From positions 1,179,351-1,243,350 of the forward strand of contig NZ_SMFQ01000002.1 in NCBI RefSeq assembly GCF_004339015.1: a DNA stretch of 64,000 nucleotides. Direction: 5' to 3'. Positions 7,887-26,110 of this stretch are shown here, piece by piece. Source of the stretch: Cocleimonas flava (GTDB lineage Bacteria; Pseudomonadota; Gammaproteobacteria; Thiotrichales; Thiotrichaceae). Below the pieces are notes generated by a model. That model was not told the DNA's origin. It worked only from the letters and a program-made list of their open reading frames with translations, and did not search any database. Numbering within the stretch: the first letter of the stretch is position 1; each line of letters opens with the position of its first letter. Both the position numbers and the translations under genes were made by a program.

Positions 7887-8695
7887 AATTTATTATCAAT
7901 CGTTAACTCTTTTAAGAGTGTGTCATCATTCGGGTCTTCGGCAAAAATCACTTTGCCTTTAAAACTATCGGGTATATGTGATTTCAATCTTTCACTACCA
8001 AGCAGTAATGTCACTGAATTCATCCAGTTGTTTTCGTTACTTTTGTTGTTACTGTTTGCTACAGCAGTCTCAGAATGTTTATCGGCCAGCTCAAAGAAAT
8101 GATCAATACTGAAACCGCTCGTGAGAATGATTATATCAAGCTCTTGGCGTTGTTGGTGATTTTTCAGAAGCGCTAAATTATGCTGTGGACACGTTCTGCG
8201 ATAAACATTAATACTATCAACGTCACCCCCCCACTTTAGAAGGCTTTTTTGAAGTAGGTCTCTGCCACCTTCTCCTTTAATCAGCGCTATTTTTTTACCC
8301 GGTATAAATTGTTGGAAAGCATCTAGTGCGAGTAATGCTTCGCTGTTAAAAAAACGCTCGGGGCAAAAGTCACTATCAAGACCATGTTTTTTTAGAGCTA
8401 ACCCGGTTTTTTTACCGACACATGCAAGCTTCAGCTTTTTTAAAGTGCTTACATCAACCTTATCCAAGGTGCGCTCAACAGCATTGGTGCTAATAAATAT
8501 AGCCAGATCATACTGTTCCAGTGCTGATAGTTGATGCTCGACATCTTCATAATTTTCAGGAGCATCTATTTCGAGTAATGGAAAGTTGATAACAGTAGCG
8601 CCGGCATCTCTTAATTTTTCAGTTAGTGGCTGAGCTTGATGCGCAGCTCTGGTATTGACTATCCATTTGTTTTTTAACGGCAGAGAAGCTTCCAT
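7883..8695 (-). CDS. hemD: uroporphyrinogen-III synthase
   Basis: 270 residues. It cyclises hydroxymethylbilane with ring-D inversion, the branch point to heme, siroheme and cobalamin. The family is poorly conserved, but the two alternating alpha/beta lobes are visible: N-terminal VNTRAAHQAQPLTEKL, FPLLEI, FISTNAVE; second lobe ALIKGEGGRDLL and IILTSGFSIDHF. It follows hemC after 6 nt and overlaps hemX by 4 nt. Dispersed repeat copy 3 lies inside the gene and encodes the residues LLKWGGD between the two lobes. Confidence 0.88.
   Translation of the reverse strand: MEASLPLKNKWIVNTRAAHQAQPLTEKLRDAGATVINFPLLEIDAPENYEDVEHQLSALEQYDLAIFISTNAVERTLDKVDVSTLKKLKLACVGKKTGLALKKHGLDSDFCPERFFNSEALLALDAFQQFIPGKKIALIKGEGGRDLLQKSLLKWGGDVDSINVYRRTCPQHNLALLKNHQQRQELDIIILTSGFSIDHFFELADKHSETAVANSNNKSNENNWMNSVTLLLGSERLKSHIPDSFKGKVIFAEDPNDDTLLKELTIDNKL
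8222..8250 (-). repeat. dispersed G-run repeat, copy 3 (inside hemD)
   Basis: On the minus strand: A6, GCCTTCT arm, exact 13-mer AAGTGGGGGGGTG (8224-8236). It is read in the hemD frame as AAG TGG GGG GGT. The G-rich strand is the sense strand, so it is not in terminator orientation for hemD. Confidence 0.85.
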
Positions 8696-14969: not shown

Positions 14970-15230
14970 GAGTATGAGGCGGTTAACATGATTAGTGGAG
15001 TGTAGACGACGCCTTCTTATTTTGTTGATCTTTTTAAAGATTAAATACCTTTTAATGACTTGCTAAAAAGCGATGAATAATGGGTTCAGTGTATGTGTTA
15101 ATTGCAGGCAATTTTAAGCATCTTGTATGGTTAGTAAAACTAACATAAGGGTAGAGAGCCCAAGAAAACGCTAAATTATTCCAAGAAAGATATTTATCTT
15201 TTAAGACTATTGGATTAAGATTTTTTCCGT
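14970..15230. other. intergenic region before the FMN riboswitch
   Basis: It holds the upstream region of the EamA gene and the promoter region of the ribH transcript. I see no coding sequence or recognisable RNA other than the riboswitch that follows. Confidence 0.5.
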
Positions 15231-15382
15231 AAGTCTTCGGGGTTGGGTGTAATTCCCTACCGGCGGTAAAGTTTTCAACATTGTTGATGAAAACAAGCCC
15301 GCGAGCGTCAAAGTGATAACTTTGAGTCAGCAGATTTGGTGTAATTCCAAAGCCGACGGTTAAAGTCCGGATGATAGAAGTT
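15231..15382 (+). promoter_or_regulatory. FMN riboswitch (RFN element)
   Basis: The conserved RFN blocks are all present in order: TCTTCGGGG, GGTGTAATTCCCTACCGG, GCGGTAAAG, AGCCCGCGAGC, GTCAGCAGATTTGGTG, TAATTCCAAAGCCGACGG, TTAAAGTCCGGATGATAGAA. P1 closes with CTTC/GAAG. It lies 116 nt upstream of the type II lumazine synthase, which it should switch off when FMN is plentiful. The expression platform lies in 15383-15498; I could not assign terminator and antiterminator stems with confidence. Confidence 0.96.
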
Positions 15383-15498
15383 TACAGGTTGTAAGTCCTA
15401 TCTAAGGTCTTAGCGCGTGCGTTCTAGAAATGCCTTCGCGTTTTCCTGCGTTATTTCTTCATGCCCATTATTGTTAATTGTAAAAATGGTAGTGAAAA

Positions 15499-15984
15499 AT
15501 GAATAATCATAATCAAGCAAAAATTTGTTATATCCAATCCTCATGGCATAAAAACATTGTCAATGAGCTTAAAAATTCGTGTATAAATACTCTAATTGAG
15601 CAAGGAATTGCAAAAGAGAATATTAGCGAAGTTGATGTACCCGGCGCTCTTGAAATACCTTTGCAGGCAAAACTGCGAGCAGAAACAGGGCAGTACTCTT
15701 TAATTATCGTTGCAGGATTAATTGTTGATGGCGGTATTTATCGTCACGAATTTGTCGCTGATAGCATAATTAAATCGATTATGGACATTCAGCTAGATAC
15801 TCGAATCCCCATTATTCACTCCATAATGACGCCAATTAATTTCCACGAAGGCGCTGAACACGAAGCGTTCTTTTTTAAACACTTTGCGACAAAAGGCAAA
15901 GAGGCCGCGGAAGCCTGTATCCAGACTTTAAATAACTGCGAAGATGTTAAGCAGTATTCCCATGAAAAATTGAAAATTGCCTAA
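15499..15984 (+). CDS. ribH: 6,7-dimethyl-8-ribityllumazine synthase, type II
   Basis: 161 residues. It condenses the ribityl pyrimidine with dihydroxybutanone phosphate in riboflavin synthesis. VPGALEIP (47-54) is the family loop. VDGGIYRHEF (76-85) is characteristic of the decameric RibH2 clade of Brucella and Mesorhizobium rather than the GAVIRGxTxHF of icosahedral RibH1. It is the only gene behind the FMN riboswitch and is closed by a repeat in terminator orientation. A housekeeping ribH presumably lies elsewhere with ribBDE. Confidence 0.9.
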   Translation: MNNHNQAKICYIQSSWHKNIVNELKNSCINTLIEQGIAKENISEVDVPGALEIPLQAKLRAETGQYSLIIVAGLIVDGGIYRHEFVADSIIKSIMDIQLDTRIPIIHSIMTPINFHEGAEHEAFFFKHFATKGKEAAEACIQTLNNCEDVKQYSHEKLKIA

Positions 15985-16090
15985 AAGTAGAAATGTTTTC
16001 ACAACACACTAAAGCCCAGCGACGATTTCTTATGGAATCGTCGATGGGTAATGGTCAAACCAGCTTAAATATTATGTAAATAAGATTTAA

Positions 16091-16119
16091 GCCACCCCCC
16101 TACTTATAGAGGGTTTTTT
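16091..16119 (+). repeat. dispersed G-run repeat, copy 4 (terminator of ribH)
   Basis: C-rich strand on plus: exact complement of AAGTAGGGGGGTG at 16093-16105, then TATAGAGGG and T6. The stem CCCCCTA(CTTA)TAGAGGG has six of seven pairs, the best hairpin of the set, about 110 nt after the ribH stop. Confidence 0.88.
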
Positions 16120-16915: not shown

Positions 16916-16965
16916 AGCGTGTTGTTAACTGCATATCGGAGGCTTGGAATCTGTTGGCTGATTTA

Positions 16966-16994
16966 GCCACCCTCCTACTTTAGGGCACTTTTTT
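16966..16994 (+). repeat. dispersed G-run repeat, copy 5 (terminator of the SDR gene)
   Basis: C-rich on plus; core variant with one change (AAGTAGGAGGGTG on the minus strand, 16968-16980). Hairpin CCTA(CTT)TAGG, then GCAC and T6. It lies 50 nt after the SDR stop. Confidence 0.82.
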
Positions 16995-17426
16995 CTATAC
17001 CTTTACAAAGCAACTGAATTATTAACGATGATATCAAAGCTCAAAAAGGTTCTTATCATGATCAGCCTGAGTATTCAGATAGGCGTTTACTCTGTTTTAT
17101 AAACCCTATTGAATGCGGCCTTCTATCGTAAGTATTTGATTTTAGGTATCGAGAAAAGTATATTTACCTTTCTAGCAAATAATTTTCGTATGGTTTTTTA
17201 AGAGCGAAAAATAAGCGCGGATAGTTTCATCTGAATCACTGAAGCAAGCAACTTTAACAGTTCTTCTTTATACGTTGTGCGTCGACTTGGTTTTGTATGA
17301 AATGATGTAATACCCCTCACGTTTAGTACTTTCCCATTGTAAGAAGTCATAATAATGGACAAGGTATGGTCTAGGTTCAGGTCTAAATATAAATTTCAAA
17401 TCAAATTTCACAAGGACAGAAATTTG

Positions 17427-17453
17427 AAAACACGGCCTAAAGTAGGGGGGTGG
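17427..17453 (+). repeat. dispersed G-run repeat, copy 6
   Basis: Exact AAGTAGGGGGGTG at 17440-17452 after a short A-tract and CGGCCT arm. It lies 220 nt before bufA, G-rich on the sense strand of the downstream operon. Confidence 0.85.
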
Positions 17454-17672
17454 GTAACAAACTGGTAATTAATGAACAATAAATAAAGAAAAAAGGAAAT
17501 AAGGATAAATCCTTATGGTTTGTTAAGCCGGTAAAATATGTACTTTTTAAACTAACACTTTGTCTTTTAACGTTAAATTAAATTAATTTGATCTGAATTT
17601 CAAAATGTGTCGTATAACACTACAGATATCAAATGATGTCTTAAACCATTATTAATTAAGAGATTTATTACT

Positions 17673-18026
17673 ATGAAAAATTCTACGAATTCTGCACTAA
17701 TCGCTGGCGCTGCTCTAGCTGTTCTAACTTCTGTTGCTACTGCAAAGCCTAACGACCAATTAACAATTTCTGCAGATGCTTCTGATAGCGCTAAAAAGAG
17801 CTTTAATTCTTGGGTTGCAGGTGCTGAGATTTCAGGACGTAAAGATAAATGTTTCGGTATTGCATTAACAGCTGAGAACGATTGTGCAGCAGGTCCAGGT
17901 ACAAGTTGTCAGGGTACTTCAACAAGTGATTTCCAGGGTAATGCATGGACTTATGCACCAAAAGGCACTTGTGAATTCATCAAGACACCAGTAGGCATGG
18001 GTTCTAAGTCTGAAATTAAAGCGTAA
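17673..18026 (+). CDS. bufA: bufferin precursor peptide (DUF2282)
   Basis: 117 residues. A signal peptide with Ala-rich core ([18 protein letters not shown]) is followed by the DUF2282 core containing four cysteines in the order [30 protein letters not shown]. Two Cys-containing blocks and the NAW..PKGTC ending are the family hallmarks. In characterised bufferins the neighbouring MNIO enzyme converts cysteines to thiooxazole-type heterocycles and the secreted product chelates copper. First gene of bufABCD; bufB begins 26 nt downstream. Confidence 0.92.
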
Positions 18027-18052
18027 TATTTCTAAGCTTTAATACACTGAAT

Positions 18053-19006
18053 ATGCAAAGTCATTTGGCCCAATTTGATTCGAAGCAGTCAACGCTGACA
18101 GGCGCGGGGATAAACTTGAAACCCCAGCACTATGAAGCAGCACTTTTATTAGCTGATGGACATTTTTCAGCTGACGCAGGCTCCCAGCCCAATGCTGTAT
18201 CAGAACTCTGGTTTGAAGTTCATACCGAGAACTACTTCGTACAAGGCGGGCCAAGACTTCGTTATTTACAAGAAATCGCCGATCGCTTTCCGCTTAGCTT
18301 TCACGGCGTCGCAGGTTCTCTCGGATCCTTTAACGAGAAACCTGCCACTATTACTACCAGTCATTTGGCACAGGTATCCAGTTTAGTTAAACGTTTTAGC
18401 CCTGTGTTAGTGTCTGAACATGCGACTTGGTCAACAAGTCAGCATGCTTATTTTTCTGACTTATTGCCTTTGCCGCGAACACAACAGGCTTTGAATTGCC
18501 TTTGTGATGGTATTGATCGCTATCAAGAGGCGATAGGTCGTACTATTCTGATTGAAAATCCAACCAATTATTTAGATTTTATCTCAGAAATGGATGAAGC
18601 AGATTTCTTGATGGAAGCTGCAAACCGAACCGGAGCAGGATTACTGGTCGACGTAAATAATTTATACCTCAGCTACCGTAATACTGCTTTAAACCCTCAG
18701 CAATACCTGGAATCTTTAAATCCTGCCAAAGTCGGTGAGATTCACATAGCCGGTTTTGATGCCGACCCTAATTTTCCCGATGATTTATTAATCGACAGTC
18801 ATGGAGCTCCAGTAGATGAAGCTGTGTGGGATTTATTAGAAACGGCTATTTCAATTTTAGGGCCTAAACCGGTGCTATTAGAACGTGATGATAATGTGCC
18901 CGAGTTTAGTGAGTTAATGACCGAGCGTAATCGCGCTTATTCGATTTTGATGGACTCATCCAGAATGGCTCAACAGCCTCAATTGGCGGTGACTAATGCC
19001 AGCTGA
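18053..19006 (+). CDS. bufB: MNIO enzyme (DUF692) for bufferin maturation
   Basis: 317 residues of the multinuclear iron oxidase family (MbnB, TglH). The TIM-barrel metal ligands can be read along the chain: WFEVHTENYF (53-62), FHGVAGSLG (83-91), SEHATWS (121-127), then ENPTNYL, DVNNLY, EIHIAGFD, DSHGAP and LERDDNVPE. With bufC it should modify cysteines of BufA. About 20 residues precede the usual family start (GINLKPQHY); no better start with a ribosome site is evident. Overlaps bufC by 11 nt. Confidence 0.93.
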   Translation: MQSHLAQFDSKQSTLTGAGINLKPQHYEAALLLADGHFSADAGSQPNAVSELWFEVHTENYFVQGGPRLRYLQEIADRFPLSFHGVAGSLGSFNEKPATITTSHLAQVSSLVKRFSPVLVSEHATWSTSQHAYFSDLLPLPRTQQALNCLCDGIDRYQEAIGRTILIENPTNYLDFISEMDEADFLMEAANRTGAGLLVDVNNLYLSYRNTALNPQQYLESLNPAKVGEIHIAGFDADPNFPDDLLIDSHGAPVDEAVWDLLETAISILGPKPVLLERDDNVPEFSELMTERNRAYSILMDSSRMAQQPQLAVTNAS

Positions 19007-19850
19007 TCATTCTTCACACAGTGAGTATTTGCGTGCATTTCAGCAATTCATGCAAACGGGAGAAAAAGCACAGTTAGCTTCTTTCCTCGAAGACAGCAGA
19101 CCTGAAGCATTCTTAAGCGTTTACCGGAATGGTTTTATCCGAGCCAGTGTTTCTGCACTTGAAAGTAATTTCCCGACGCTGGTTAAACTTTGGGGAGACG
19201 ACTACTTCGCACAAGTGGCAGGCGCTTATGTCAACGCTACACCGCCATCCAATGCAACGCTAATAGGCTATGGTTTTGAAAACCGTACCGAACAATCTGT
19301 GGATGATGAATTAGAGCCGTCAACCCTTAGCTTTTTAGAGTTCCTTCAGCAACATCTCGCTGAGGTGTTAGTTCAATTTCCTTATGTGCCTGATATCTGT
19401 CGTTTAGATCAAGCCTGGTTAGAATCACTCAATGAGAATGGAGAGTCGTTTCTAACACTTGAGGTTGTTCAGGATTTAATAGCACAAGGGGAAGATTTAT
19501 CGGAATTACCATTAACAGTGGTTGATTCAAGCCGAGTGGTTGATCTGGAGTTCGATATCTTTGAATTATGGGGGCAACTGCGGTTCGGAGAAATTTCAGA
19601 AGACCATAAAATAGAGTTAAATCCACATCAGAACTCCGTGATTTTTTGGCAGATGGATTTACAGGTGCAAGCTAAACCTTTGTCTGCCGTTGAAGCGGTA
19701 TTCATGAAGTGTTTGAAACAGACTGCAGATATTGATGAAGCAACAAAGCAGGCGTTGGCAATGGATGAAAGTTTTGATATTTCAACCTTATTTGCTGAGC
19801 TACTGAACGCCCATCTATTACAACGCTTACAAAAACTTCCACAAAAATAA
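18996..19850 (+). CDS. bufC: bufferin maturation partner (DUF2063 / MbnC-like)
   Basis: 284 residues. The N-terminal DUF2063 domain has FLSVYRNGFIRASVSALESNFPTLVKLWGDDYF, given here as the motif YRNGF then LESNFPTL, and the family ending AYVNATPPSNATLIGYG. It is the peptide-recognition partner of DUF692 enzymes: it presents the precursor to BufB. The C-terminal part (about 150-284) is the less conserved helical/beta extension seen in other BufC proteins. Start overlaps the bufB end, implying coupled translation in a 1:1 complex. Confidence 0.9.
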   Translation: MPADHSSHSEYLRAFQQFMQTGEKAQLASFLEDSRPEAFLSVYRNGFIRASVSALESNFPTLVKLWGDDYFAQVAGAYVNATPPSNATLIGYGFENRTEQSVDDELEPSTLSFLEFLQQHLAEVLVQFPYVPDICRLDQAWLESLNENGESFLTLEVVQDLIAQGEDLSELPLTVVDSSRVVDLEFDIFELWGQLRFGEISEDHKIELNPHQNSVIFWQMDLQVQAKPLSAVEAVFMKCLKQTADIDEATKQALAMDESFDISTLFAELLNAHLLQRLQKLPQK

Positions 19851-19871
19851 AATTTAATCGAGTAACACGCT

Positions 19872-20405
19872 ATGAATTTAATCCGATCATTTTATATTGC
19901 CGTATTTGAATGGCTGAATATATTGTTTAAACCACTGGCTATGCTGGGCTTACGCTGGCAACTTTTCAGTGTGTTCTTTTATTCTGGTTTAGCCAAATGG
20001 AATGGTTTTTTGAAACCCGATCCCGGCGTCTATGATTTATTTCTGTATGAGTTTTTCTGCCCTGAAGAACCACGAGAAGGCGCGCTTTTGCTGTGTGATC
20101 CTAAAACTTTAGAGTATGTGGATGGCTCATCTACCGTTGCTTATATTAAGTACTTTGCTGTAGCTGCAGGCGTGGCAGAAATCGTATTGCCACTAATGAT
20201 CATCGTTGGATTGTTTACGAGATTTGCCGCACTAGGCATCCTCGGTATGACTATCTTTATCCAGTTAGCAGTATTCCCGACATGGTCGCACTGGGTGAAT
20301 CCTGCAATGTGGTGGGCCGGAGTTGCGGCCGCATTGATTGTTATCGGGCCAGGTAAGTTGTCGCTAGATTACTGGTTGGGTTTAGAGAAAAAGACCAGCA
20401 AATAA
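19872..20405 (+). CDS. bufD: DoxX-family membrane protein of the bufferin operon
   Basis: 177 residues. DoxX fold with four membrane spans; the first contains the conserved RWQLFSVFFYSGLAKW and the fourth region ends WAGVAAALIVIGPGKLSLD. An inserted loop (DPGVYDLFLYEFFCPEEP) carries two cysteines, and FFCPEEP..LLCDPKT is reminiscent of other buf-linked DoxX proteins. It lies 21 nt after bufC. Its task in bufferin export, redox or copper handling has not been shown. Convergent with znuB. Confidence 0.85.
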   Translation: MNLIRSFYIAVFEWLNILFKPLAMLGLRWQLFSVFFYSGLAKWNGFLKPDPGVYDLFLYEFFCPEEPREGALLLCDPKTLEYVDGSSTVAYIKYFAVAAGVAEIVLPLMIIVGLFTRFAALGILGMTIFIQLAVFPTWSHWVNPAMWWAGVAAALIVIGPGKLSLDYWLGLEKKTSK

Positions 20406-20438: not shown

Positions 20439-20466
20439 GTAATCGACGGCTTGTGCTGTCGATTAC
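20439..20466. terminator. inverted repeat between bufD and znuB
   Basis: GTAATCGAC (20439-20447) and GTCGATTAC (20458-20466) form a 9-bp stem with a 10-nt loop. A weak T-rich stretch follows 14 nt later on the plus strand. It is a plausible end of the bufABCD transcript, without the classic adjacent T-tract. Confidence 0.5.
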
Positions 20467-20487: not shown

Positions 20488-21273
20488 TTAAATACGTTTG
20501 CTAAAAACCTGGCTCAACAAAAATAAAGAAGAAGCAGCTACTACGATCGATGGGCCCGCAGGCGTGTCCCATAAGAAAGAAGCGCTTAATCCCAGAATCA
20601 CAGAAATACAGCCCACGACGATAGCAAGCACTGCCATTTGTTCTGGTGTTTTAGAGAATTGTCTAGCCGTTGCCGCGGGTATAATTAACAGTGATGTGAT
20701 TAGCAAGGCGCCGATTATTTTCATCGCTATTGCCACCAAAACCGCAATCAGCAATGTATAGATCGCGCTGATTAGTGAGATATTAACGCCTTCTACCAAA
20801 GCCAGTTCTTCATGTACGGTTAATGATAATAATGGTTTCCAGATCACGGTGAGTACGGCTAAAACCACCCCCACACTTACAGCGATTAATCCTAAATCTG
20901 TCCATGTAACCGCGAGGATGTCACCGAATAACCATGCATTCAAATCAACCCGCATGCCATGCACAAAGCTGATTAAGACTAAGCCTAGCGACAATGCGCT
21001 GTGTGAAATGATGCCGAGTAGGGCGTCGCTACCCAGTCGTTTTTGCCGCTGCGATAGTATCAGTAAGGCAGCGACCAATAATGTAGAAACCAGGATGCCA
21101 ATATTCACATTGATCGACATGAGCATGCCGAGAGCCACACCTAATATCGCTGAGTGAGATAAGGTATCGCCAAAATATGCCATCCGACGCCAGAGTAGAA
21201 AAGCACCTAATGGGCCGGCAATTAATGCAATCGCGACGCCTGCCAGAATGGCGCGGACTAAAAAATCATCCAT
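20488..21273 (-). CDS. znuB: zinc ABC transporter permease
   Basis: 261 residues of the ABC-3 family (ZnuB/TroC). Seven to eight membrane spans begin FLVRAILAGVAIALIAGPLGAFLLWRRMAYFGDTLSHSAILGVALG (motif LWRRMAYFGDTLSHSAILG), which is the conserved N-terminal block of zinc permeases. It sits at the end of a two-gene unit and overlaps znuC by 8 nt. Together with ZnuC and the divergently encoded ZnuA it forms the high-affinity zinc importer. Confidence 0.93.
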   Translation of the reverse strand: MDDFLVRAILAGVAIALIAGPLGAFLLWRRMAYFGDTLSHSAILGVALGMLMSINVNIGILVSTLLVAALLILSQRQKRLGSDALLGIISHSALSLGLVLISFVHGMRVDLNAWLFGDILAVTWTDLGLIAVSVGVVLAVLTVIWKPLLSLTVHEELALVEGVNISLISAIYTLLIAVLVAIAMKIIGALLITSLLIIPAATARQFSKTPEQMAVLAIVVGCISVILGLSASFLWDTPAGPSIVVAASSLFLLSQVFSKRI

Positions 21274-25963: not shown

Positions 25964-26023
25964 TGCCTTAGCTTATTTAATCAGAATTTAATCAGAGAAT
26001 TAGTAATAGCAAATTAGTTAAAA

Positions 26024-26051
26024 GCCACCCCCTACTTATAACCATTTTTTT
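26024..26051 (+). repeat. dispersed G-run repeat, copy 8 (terminator of phrB)
   Basis: C-rich on plus with one fewer base in the run (CACCCCCTACTT, 26026-26037), TATAACCA arm, T7 (26045-26051). It is 60 nt after the phrB stop and forms an inverted pair with copy 9. Confidence 0.82.
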
Positions 26052-26056
26052 AGTAT

Positions 26057-26085
26057 AAAAAAACGCCTCAAAGTAGGGGGGTGGC
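26057..26085 (-). repeat. dispersed G-run repeat, copy 9 (terminator of litR)
   Basis: A7, CGCCTCA arm, exact 13-mer AAGTAGGGGGGTG at 26071-26083. On the minus strand it ends in T7 and lies 25 nt after the litR stop. Facing copy 8, the outer arms GCCACCCCC and GGGGGGTGGC can also pair over the whole 62 bp. Confidence 0.88.
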
Positions 26086-26110
26086 ATAGGCTAGATTGAA
26101 TAGGTGTTGA

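Follow-up and report, generated by a model that had tools for sequence, protein, structure and literature searches.

Bufferin clusters are assembled from four core genes, which encode a precursor, an MNIO enzyme, a DUF2063 protein and a DoxX protein; in the mature bufferins the central cysteines are modified and the outer pair forms a disulfide (PMC12452194). In Caulobacter, genes of the sigma-F regulon that encode these four domains respond to chromium and cadmium (PMC3511200), and a single class, the captophorins, has been proposed for thiooxazole peptides (PMC12668002). Here we describe a bufABCD operon within a 64-kb stretch of contig C1 (hereafter the window, i.e. this whole stretch) of a genome of 4.49 Mb and 10 contigs (G000). 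The genome was compared with its genus-mates (G003, G007 and others; 12 genus genomes in all, with G003, G008 and G011 80–89% complete) and with 80 related loci totaling 912,882 bp, namely the best 80 of the 100 BufB relatives confirmed in a single scan of a collection; 66 of the 80 extend at least 4.5 kb past bufB. The nearest named relatives of BufB are those of Leucothrix pacifica (83% identity) and an uncultured Cocleimonas (79%). We read the operon as a working Buf1 bufferin cluster that would follow the mechanism proposed for this class, a modified periplasmic copper buffer, with a probability of roughly 0.87.

A complete and conserved Buf1 operon

The operon lies on the forward strand and consists of four genes:

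17673–18026, + strand: bufA, DUF2282 (Buf1) bufferin precursor, 117 aa (Pfam PF10048, 3.9e-20)
18053–19006, + strand: bufB, MNIO enzyme, 317 aa (Pfam PF05114, MbnB_TglH_ChrH, 7.3e-80)
18996–19850, + strand: bufC, DUF2063 (PME type 1) partner protein, 284 aa (Pfam PF09836, 6.4e-12)
19872–20405, + strand: bufD, DoxX membrane protein, 177 aa (Pfam PF07681, 4.5e-10)

All four Pfam matches exceed their curated cut-offs. The genes are tightly packed, with a 26-nt gap between bufA and bufB, an 11-nt overlap of bufB and bufC, and a 21-nt gap between bufC and bufD. An earlier inspection of the DNA without database searches (the sequence-only reading) had described a complete bufABCD operon in canonical order with an overlap and short gaps, and open reading frame (ORF) coordinates and Pfam matches bear this out. 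Four features that define a Buf1 cluster are present: 1) a DUF2282 precursor with four conserved cysteines; 2) an MNIO gene directly after it; 3) a DUF2063 protein; and 4) a DoxX protein. The locus is an ordinary Buf1 bufferin cluster and a new member of a described class. The orthologous operon of G003 encodes proteins 84% (BufA), 79% (BufB), 69% (BufC) and 83% (BufD) identical to those of the window; in G007 the sole DUF2282 match belongs to a compact-type cluster elsewhere in the genome.

Motifs HGVAGSLG, SEHATW, IENPTN, DVNNLY, HIAGFD, DSHG and LLERDDN of BufB align with PDB 3BWW, and the conserved His/Asp/Glu metal-ligand motifs of MNIO enzymes are present in that alignment, with residues that we take to be the ligands themselves. 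BufC is a predicted DUF2063 partner protein with an RRE-like domain. By sequence it has no convincing solved relative (best E 0.78); its AlphaFold2 model, with a predicted local distance difference test score (pLDDT) of 88, has as its best fold matches 8hci_A (E 1.1e-5) and 8hi7_A, chains of the Pseudomonas syringae TglHI complex (TM 0.56/0.59), and resembles the 268-residue chain of that complex. The fold prediction for BufA was poor (pLDDT 66) and was not used.

All four reading frames are intact. Comparisons of this genome with G003 or L. pacifica gave nonsynonymous divergence (dN) of 0.11–0.25 and synonymous divergence (dS) from 0.6 to saturated, several of the estimates having saturated or failed. 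Because dN stays at 0.11–0.25 while dS is at least 0.6, the buf genes are maintained by purifying selection. That the cluster has become degenerate or inactive is therefore very improbable: nothing speaks for decay except a slightly low NCBIfam BufB score, and against it stand the intact frames, the retained catalytic motifs and the strength of purifying selection.

The precursor and its marine clade

BufA contains exactly four cysteines, C60, C71, C79 and C100, and begins like a signal peptide, with a basic start, a hydrophobic core and a boundary at ...VATA/KPN, as judged by eye. All four cysteines are invariant across 25 aligned precursors. By pattern search, 75 of the 80 related loci contain 76 Buf1 precursors between them (L039, L053, L059, L061 and L071 gave none by the pattern); these precursors fall into two groups by the offsets of their cysteines. 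Offsets of 0/11/19/40 occur in 34 precursors of 33 loci, among them the BufA of the window, and 0/11/18/39 in the other 42 DUF2282 precursors; the C2–C3 interval thus spans seven residues in the former and six in the latter. The 33 loci of the first group make up a marine gammaproteobacterial Buf1 subclade with a conserved TPxG tail, drawn from Leucothrix, Cocleimonas, Marinomonas, Pseudoalteromonas, Amphritea, Neptunomonas, Colwellia, Reinekea, Idiomarina and others. Relative to the window, its members are 48–84% identical in BufA (over 24 aligned sequences) and 44–83% in BufB. By tblastn, the 33 loci hold bufA in 33, bufB in 33, bufC in 31 and bufD in 31 cases; the contigs of L026 and L028 end inside the operon, and no bufC was detected in L032. 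According to the legend of figure 3 in PMC12452194, the cysteine pair that brackets the additional residue is the one modified in Buf1, and we know of no description there of a subtype with this extra residue.

The segment between the signal peptide and the first cysteine had been singled out as longer than in compact family members. That comparison stands, with C1 at residue 60 here and at 35–42 in six compact precursors, but the length is no peculiarity of this protein, being the norm in its own clade, and Burkholderiales precursors also carry a long stretch before C1 (C1 at about 49–60 by the start rule). Judged from the sequences compared, the long linker is a clade feature and not an oddity of this precursor. 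Start codons in the 80-locus search were set by rule, which picked an inner methionine in some loci (e.g. L005, L006, L008, L012, L014, L029, L032, L033 and L041), and short C1 positions in those loci are artefacts.

Leucothrix arctica carries a second, tandem bufA 5′ of the normal one (L004:4928–5530) with a C-terminal NPCAA(K) repeat tail. This (NPCAAK)n tail holds 14 cysteines beyond the usual four, making the protein a Buf1 precursor fused to a cysteine repeat. Four genomes of the genus of L. arctica also encode exported-looking proteins with 22–45 cysteines (L284:5161–5991, L285:5047–6129, L288:5831–6823 and L289:568–1641), in which an NPCAAK/NPC repeat block is followed by a SoxA/TsdA-type cytochrome c domain; tblastn found no relatives of BufB, BufC or BufD near them in the fetched stretches. 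As a word, ‘NPCAAK’ had no match in the literature searched.

Proposed function and regulation

By analogy with published work on other bufferins, on which the modification, export, copper binding and disulfide all depend, the peptide is likely an MNIO-modified periplasmic copper chelator. BufA would be made as a Sec precursor, and BufB, an MNIO iron enzyme, together with BufC would oxidize the central C71 and C79, probably to thiooxazoles, with C60 and C100 joined as a disulfide. The modified BufA would then be exported and buffer copper in the periplasm, and BufD (DoxX) may serve as an accessory membrane protein. A stress-type promoter, its –10 element ending 56 nt 5′ of the bufA start codon, would probably drive transcription.

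Several observations weigh against this reading. The NCBIfam bufferin maturase (BufB) model is the best for BufB by far, yet the score of 298.8 bits lies 11 bits under the cut-off of 310; that cut-off is a naming threshold, and among orthologs those of L. pacifica (305.0) and G003 (301.5) also fall below it, and that of Amphritea (319.7) lies above. A further such point is the C2–C3 spacing, which exceeds that of the 42 other DUF2282 precursors by one residue, and we know of no characterized product of this subtype. None of the 12 genus genomes searched yielded NrsF, the anti-sigma factor of the Caulobacter sigma-F regulon. Finally, a related MNIO system, mmr of Microbulbifer, went undetected in the host proteome under copper (PMC12538549).

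The putative promoter was recognized in an upstream alignment of Leucothrix and Cocleimonas loci:

17590–17616, + strand: promoter-like motif GATCTGA-N14-CGTATA 5′ of bufA

The motif starts 83 nt before bufA. The pattern GATCTRA-N14-CGTATA lies 77–85 nt before bufA in L. pacifica, G003 (L003), L. arctica (at its first bufA) and a pair of near-identical Thiotrichaceae metagenome-assembled genomes (L005 and L006; in these, 80 nt from the upstream methionine and 92 nt by the start rule). It has five matches in the 80 loci, all five upstream of bufA, and a single exact match in the genome; since the motif was derived from these very upstream regions, its presence there is by construction and its absence elsewhere is the informative part. 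From its hexamers and spacing it looks like an extracytoplasmic function (ECF) sigma-factor-type promoter. A different motif, GGAACC-N16-GTCTA, occupies the same place in two of three Marinomonas loci (three matches in the 80 loci, two of them upstream of bufA).

An alternative is that the target is not copper or not copper alone (other soft metals, or thiol/sulfur stress) and that the operon belongs to an envelope-stress response run by an ECF sigma factor. The induction of the Caulobacter sigma-F regulon by chromium and cadmium favors this (PMC3511200), as does the placement of three of the seven one-mismatch copies of the motif in the genome, which are intergenic and end 92, 103 and 96 nt short of a start codon (56 nt for bufA); the genes that follow encode an exported DUF302 protein, a small membrane protein and one protein of 282 residues, respectively. 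The other four, however, are inside ORFs or on the strand opposite to them, and with two mismatches allowed there is no excess of the motif over its control in the genome (82/95 vs 67/86), so further regulon members are unproven and the one-mismatch sites are leads only. Moreover, characterized relatives generally bind copper (PMC12668002). We regard this alternative as unlikely, though as one to keep in view, and prefer the periplasmic copper buffer.

Zinc-uptake neighbors

Two features lie immediately beyond bufD:

20439–20466, no strand: 12-bp inverted repeat in the bufD–znuB gap, putative terminator for both sides (RNA fold)
20488–21273, – strand: znuB, convergent neighbor outside the buf system (NCBIfam ZnuB 286.5 bits, cut-off 284)

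Both znuB and znuC converge on the buf operon, with 82 nt between bufD and znuB, and the hairpin in that gap may terminate both transcripts; the 101-nt bufD–znuB stretch folds with a z score of –2.32, equaled by 3 of 200 shuffles. The sequence-only reading had joined the two sets of genes into a metal-homeostasis block. The convergence itself is real, and with the short gap and the intervening hairpin it is what a joint block under shared control has in its favor. A functional block is nevertheless improbable: tblastn (E at most 1e-4) found no znuA, znuB or znuC in any of the 80 related loci, including the 66 with 4.5 kb or more beyond bufB, and genes that converge have no promoter in common. 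In G003 the buf operon sits between truB and pnp, and the draft places znuB on a different contig; in G007 a DUF3592 gene, not buf, comes after znuB, and the gene for a short-chain dehydrogenase/reductase (SDR) is followed by other genes. Because znu is missing from the 80 loci and the neighbors differ in G003 and G007, the arrangement is most simply a local rearrangement, and the neighborhood looks accidental. A tempting but unsupported link between bufferins and zinc uptake is thereby removed.

Other bufferin loci

The genome has two MNIO genes, the second at C1:570211–570993. This second locus (L102, C1:568711–572493) encodes a lipoprotein-type BufA2, a BufB and a DUF2063 partner. Its precursor scores 84.2 bits with NCBIfam BufA2 (cut-off 60) and has a lipobox cysteine, recognized by eye, plus six more; its BufB reaches 364 bits against the cut-off of 310. 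Given this composition, the host has one Buf1 and one Buf2 cluster. In G004, G006 and G010 (L168, L169 and L170), 4, 4 and 5 DUF2282 matches, respectively, lie adjacent to one another as divergent precursors.

A dispersed and oriented intergenic element

The 757-nt gap upstream of bufA (16916–17672) had been reported to carry two dispersed repeats, which proved correct; both are copies of one element. The copies nearest the operon are:

16088–16119, + strand: dispersed element 5′ of the SDR gene (core 16093), same place and orientation in G007
16963–16994, + strand: dispersed ~32-bp element, copy 1 (core 16968–16980, one mismatch), 53 nt 3′ of the SDR gene
17426–17457, – strand: dispersed ~32-bp element, copy 2 (core 17440–17452)

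Within the window, the pattern CACCCTCCTACTTTAGGGC with at most three mismatches has 5 matches, as compared with a mean of 0.00 in 100 shuffles. Exact 13-base cores, CACCCCCCTACTT, occur there at 2592–, 4592–, 16093+, 17440–, 26071–, 36544–, 46047–, 46790– and 60861–, and one-mismatch cores at 8224+, 16968+, 21926+, 49364+, 60143– and 63219–. The whole genome holds 721 exact cores, 529 on the given strand and 192 on the other. Elsewhere in the genus there are 777 in G007, 453 in G003, 388 in G011, 232 in G008 and 74 in G006, so that six of the 12 genomes, including this one, have at least 74 and the other six have at most two; the reversed pattern has no copies in any of the 12. In 12 genomes from other genera of the family, a longer element pattern (at most two mismatches) gave at most 5 matches each, near the controls. 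The genus, in only part of which the element abounds, is very probably Cocleimonas (Thiotrichaceae). Neither the 13-mer nor its complement, taken as one word, had a match in the literature searched, and Rfam found only an FMN (flavin mononucleotide) riboswitch and tRNA over the window, the riboswitch (15229–15386) standing directly 5′ of a lumazine-synthase family gene (15499–15984).

A survey of 464 kb, made up of the window and 20 stretches of 20 kb each, yielded 78 exact cores, three of which fell at stretch edges and were left unclassed. The consensus is AAAGN-CACCCCCCTACTT-W-N-R-G-S-S-NN-TTTTT(T), with constant spacing to the T run. By the ORF rule 87% of the sequence is coding, yet 73 of the 75 classed cores are intergenic, between 44 tandem, 20 convergent and 9 divergent gene pairs. 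The C-rich form lies on the strand of negative GC skew for 63 of 78 exact cores (43 of 53 where skew exceeds 0.03), and in tandem pairs 21 elements run with the genes and 23 against them. Because of these two distributions, the elements are oriented with replication and not with transcription, insofar as skew is a marker of replication direction. Counting one-mismatch copies weakens the pattern, with 15 of 106 then within ORFs and 78 of 106 on the expected strand. In a smaller early sample, 29 of 39 elements were co-oriented with the upstream gene (40 of 49 repeat loci kept after merging repeats seen twice, one of them inside an ORF), a bias that the larger sample did not bear out.

Twelve distinct copies could be placed on fetched G007 sequence (two overlapping comparisons; one of the 11 rows of the first, L224, repeats window 16093). 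Eleven have a counterpart in the same orientation no more than 163 nt away, and for nine of them the distance is at most 25 nt; this argues against recent spread and for upkeep at fixed sites, in what is a small sample. Against fixed sites stands the twelfth copy (L310), which lacks a G007 counterpart. When placeable positions were drawn at random, 35% of the 4000 draws had a G007 element no farther than 300 nt away, a share that falls to 19% with a random orientation, which makes the shared places less surprising than a naive rate would suggest. The bases 3′ of the core often differ between this genome and G007. At window 26015–26090, an inverted pair of elements folds into a strong hairpin (z –4.6) whose interior pairs the T and A runs, and an inverted pair stands at the equivalent place in G007.

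Copy 1 is unlikely to be part of the buf control region, since in G007 an element stands 63 nt after the SDR gene (L215:6552, + strand) in the orientation of copy 1 and no buf operon follows. For the same reason, and because the core occurs hundreds of times, a mobile insertion bounded by the inverted repeats at 16968+ and 17440– was rejected. An intrinsic terminator was likewise rejected: three single copies form weak hairpins (z –0.95, –1.52 and 0.00), and orientation does not follow transcription. Mobilization of the RAYT/REP kind was discarded as well, as Y1_Tnp (PF01797) has no match in this genome; it also has none in G003, G006, G008 or G011, and four in G007.

Binding sites of chromosome-organizing or repair machines include the KOPS, Chi and matS classes. 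Tentatively, and at somewhat less than even odds, we suggest that the element is a selected binding site for a chromosome-organizing, replication, repair or DNA-uptake machine, with no described counterpart of such size and polarity. It may instead be an old element family with an insertion bias for one replication strand. If the description holds, an intergenic element of several hundred copies, oriented along the chromosome, largely conserved in position and present in only part of one genus, would offer a handle on the origin of strand-oriented signals.

Comparison with known systems

REP, BIME and REPIN repeats occur as hundreds of short intergenic copies, single or in inverted pairs, and the dispersed element resembles them in these respects. 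It differs in that its single copies are hardly palindromic and most of the tested positions are shared with one sister species.

Among bufferin-like systems, the captophorins (oxazolin, fontiphorin, gonophorin and bulbicupramide) likewise pair an MNIO enzyme with a DUF2063 partner, and a 5-thiooxazole chemistry has been proposed as common to them (PMC12668002); their precursors are EGKCG repeats, in contrast to the DUF2282 precursor of the window. A close described parallel is Caulobacter CC3254–3257, a Buf1 cluster of the sigma-F regulon with the same four genes, order and domains (PMC3511200, PMC12452194). The window differs from it in the long stretch before C1 and in the absence of NrsF from its genus, and the Caulobacter sigma-F promoter, GTAACC-N16-CGAA, is unlike the motif upstream of bufA (PMC3511200). 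The additional C2–C3 residue is defined against the 42 other DUF2282 precursors, an alignment to which the Caulobacter sequence does not belong. Close as well is the marine subclade itself, in which Leucothrix, Cocleimonas, Marinomonas, Amphritea, Neptunomonas and their relatives share the precursor layout of the window and differ from it in neighboring genes. With an extra residue fixed between the cysteines expected to be modified, this subclade provides a natural variant for relating cysteine spacing to the choice of metal.

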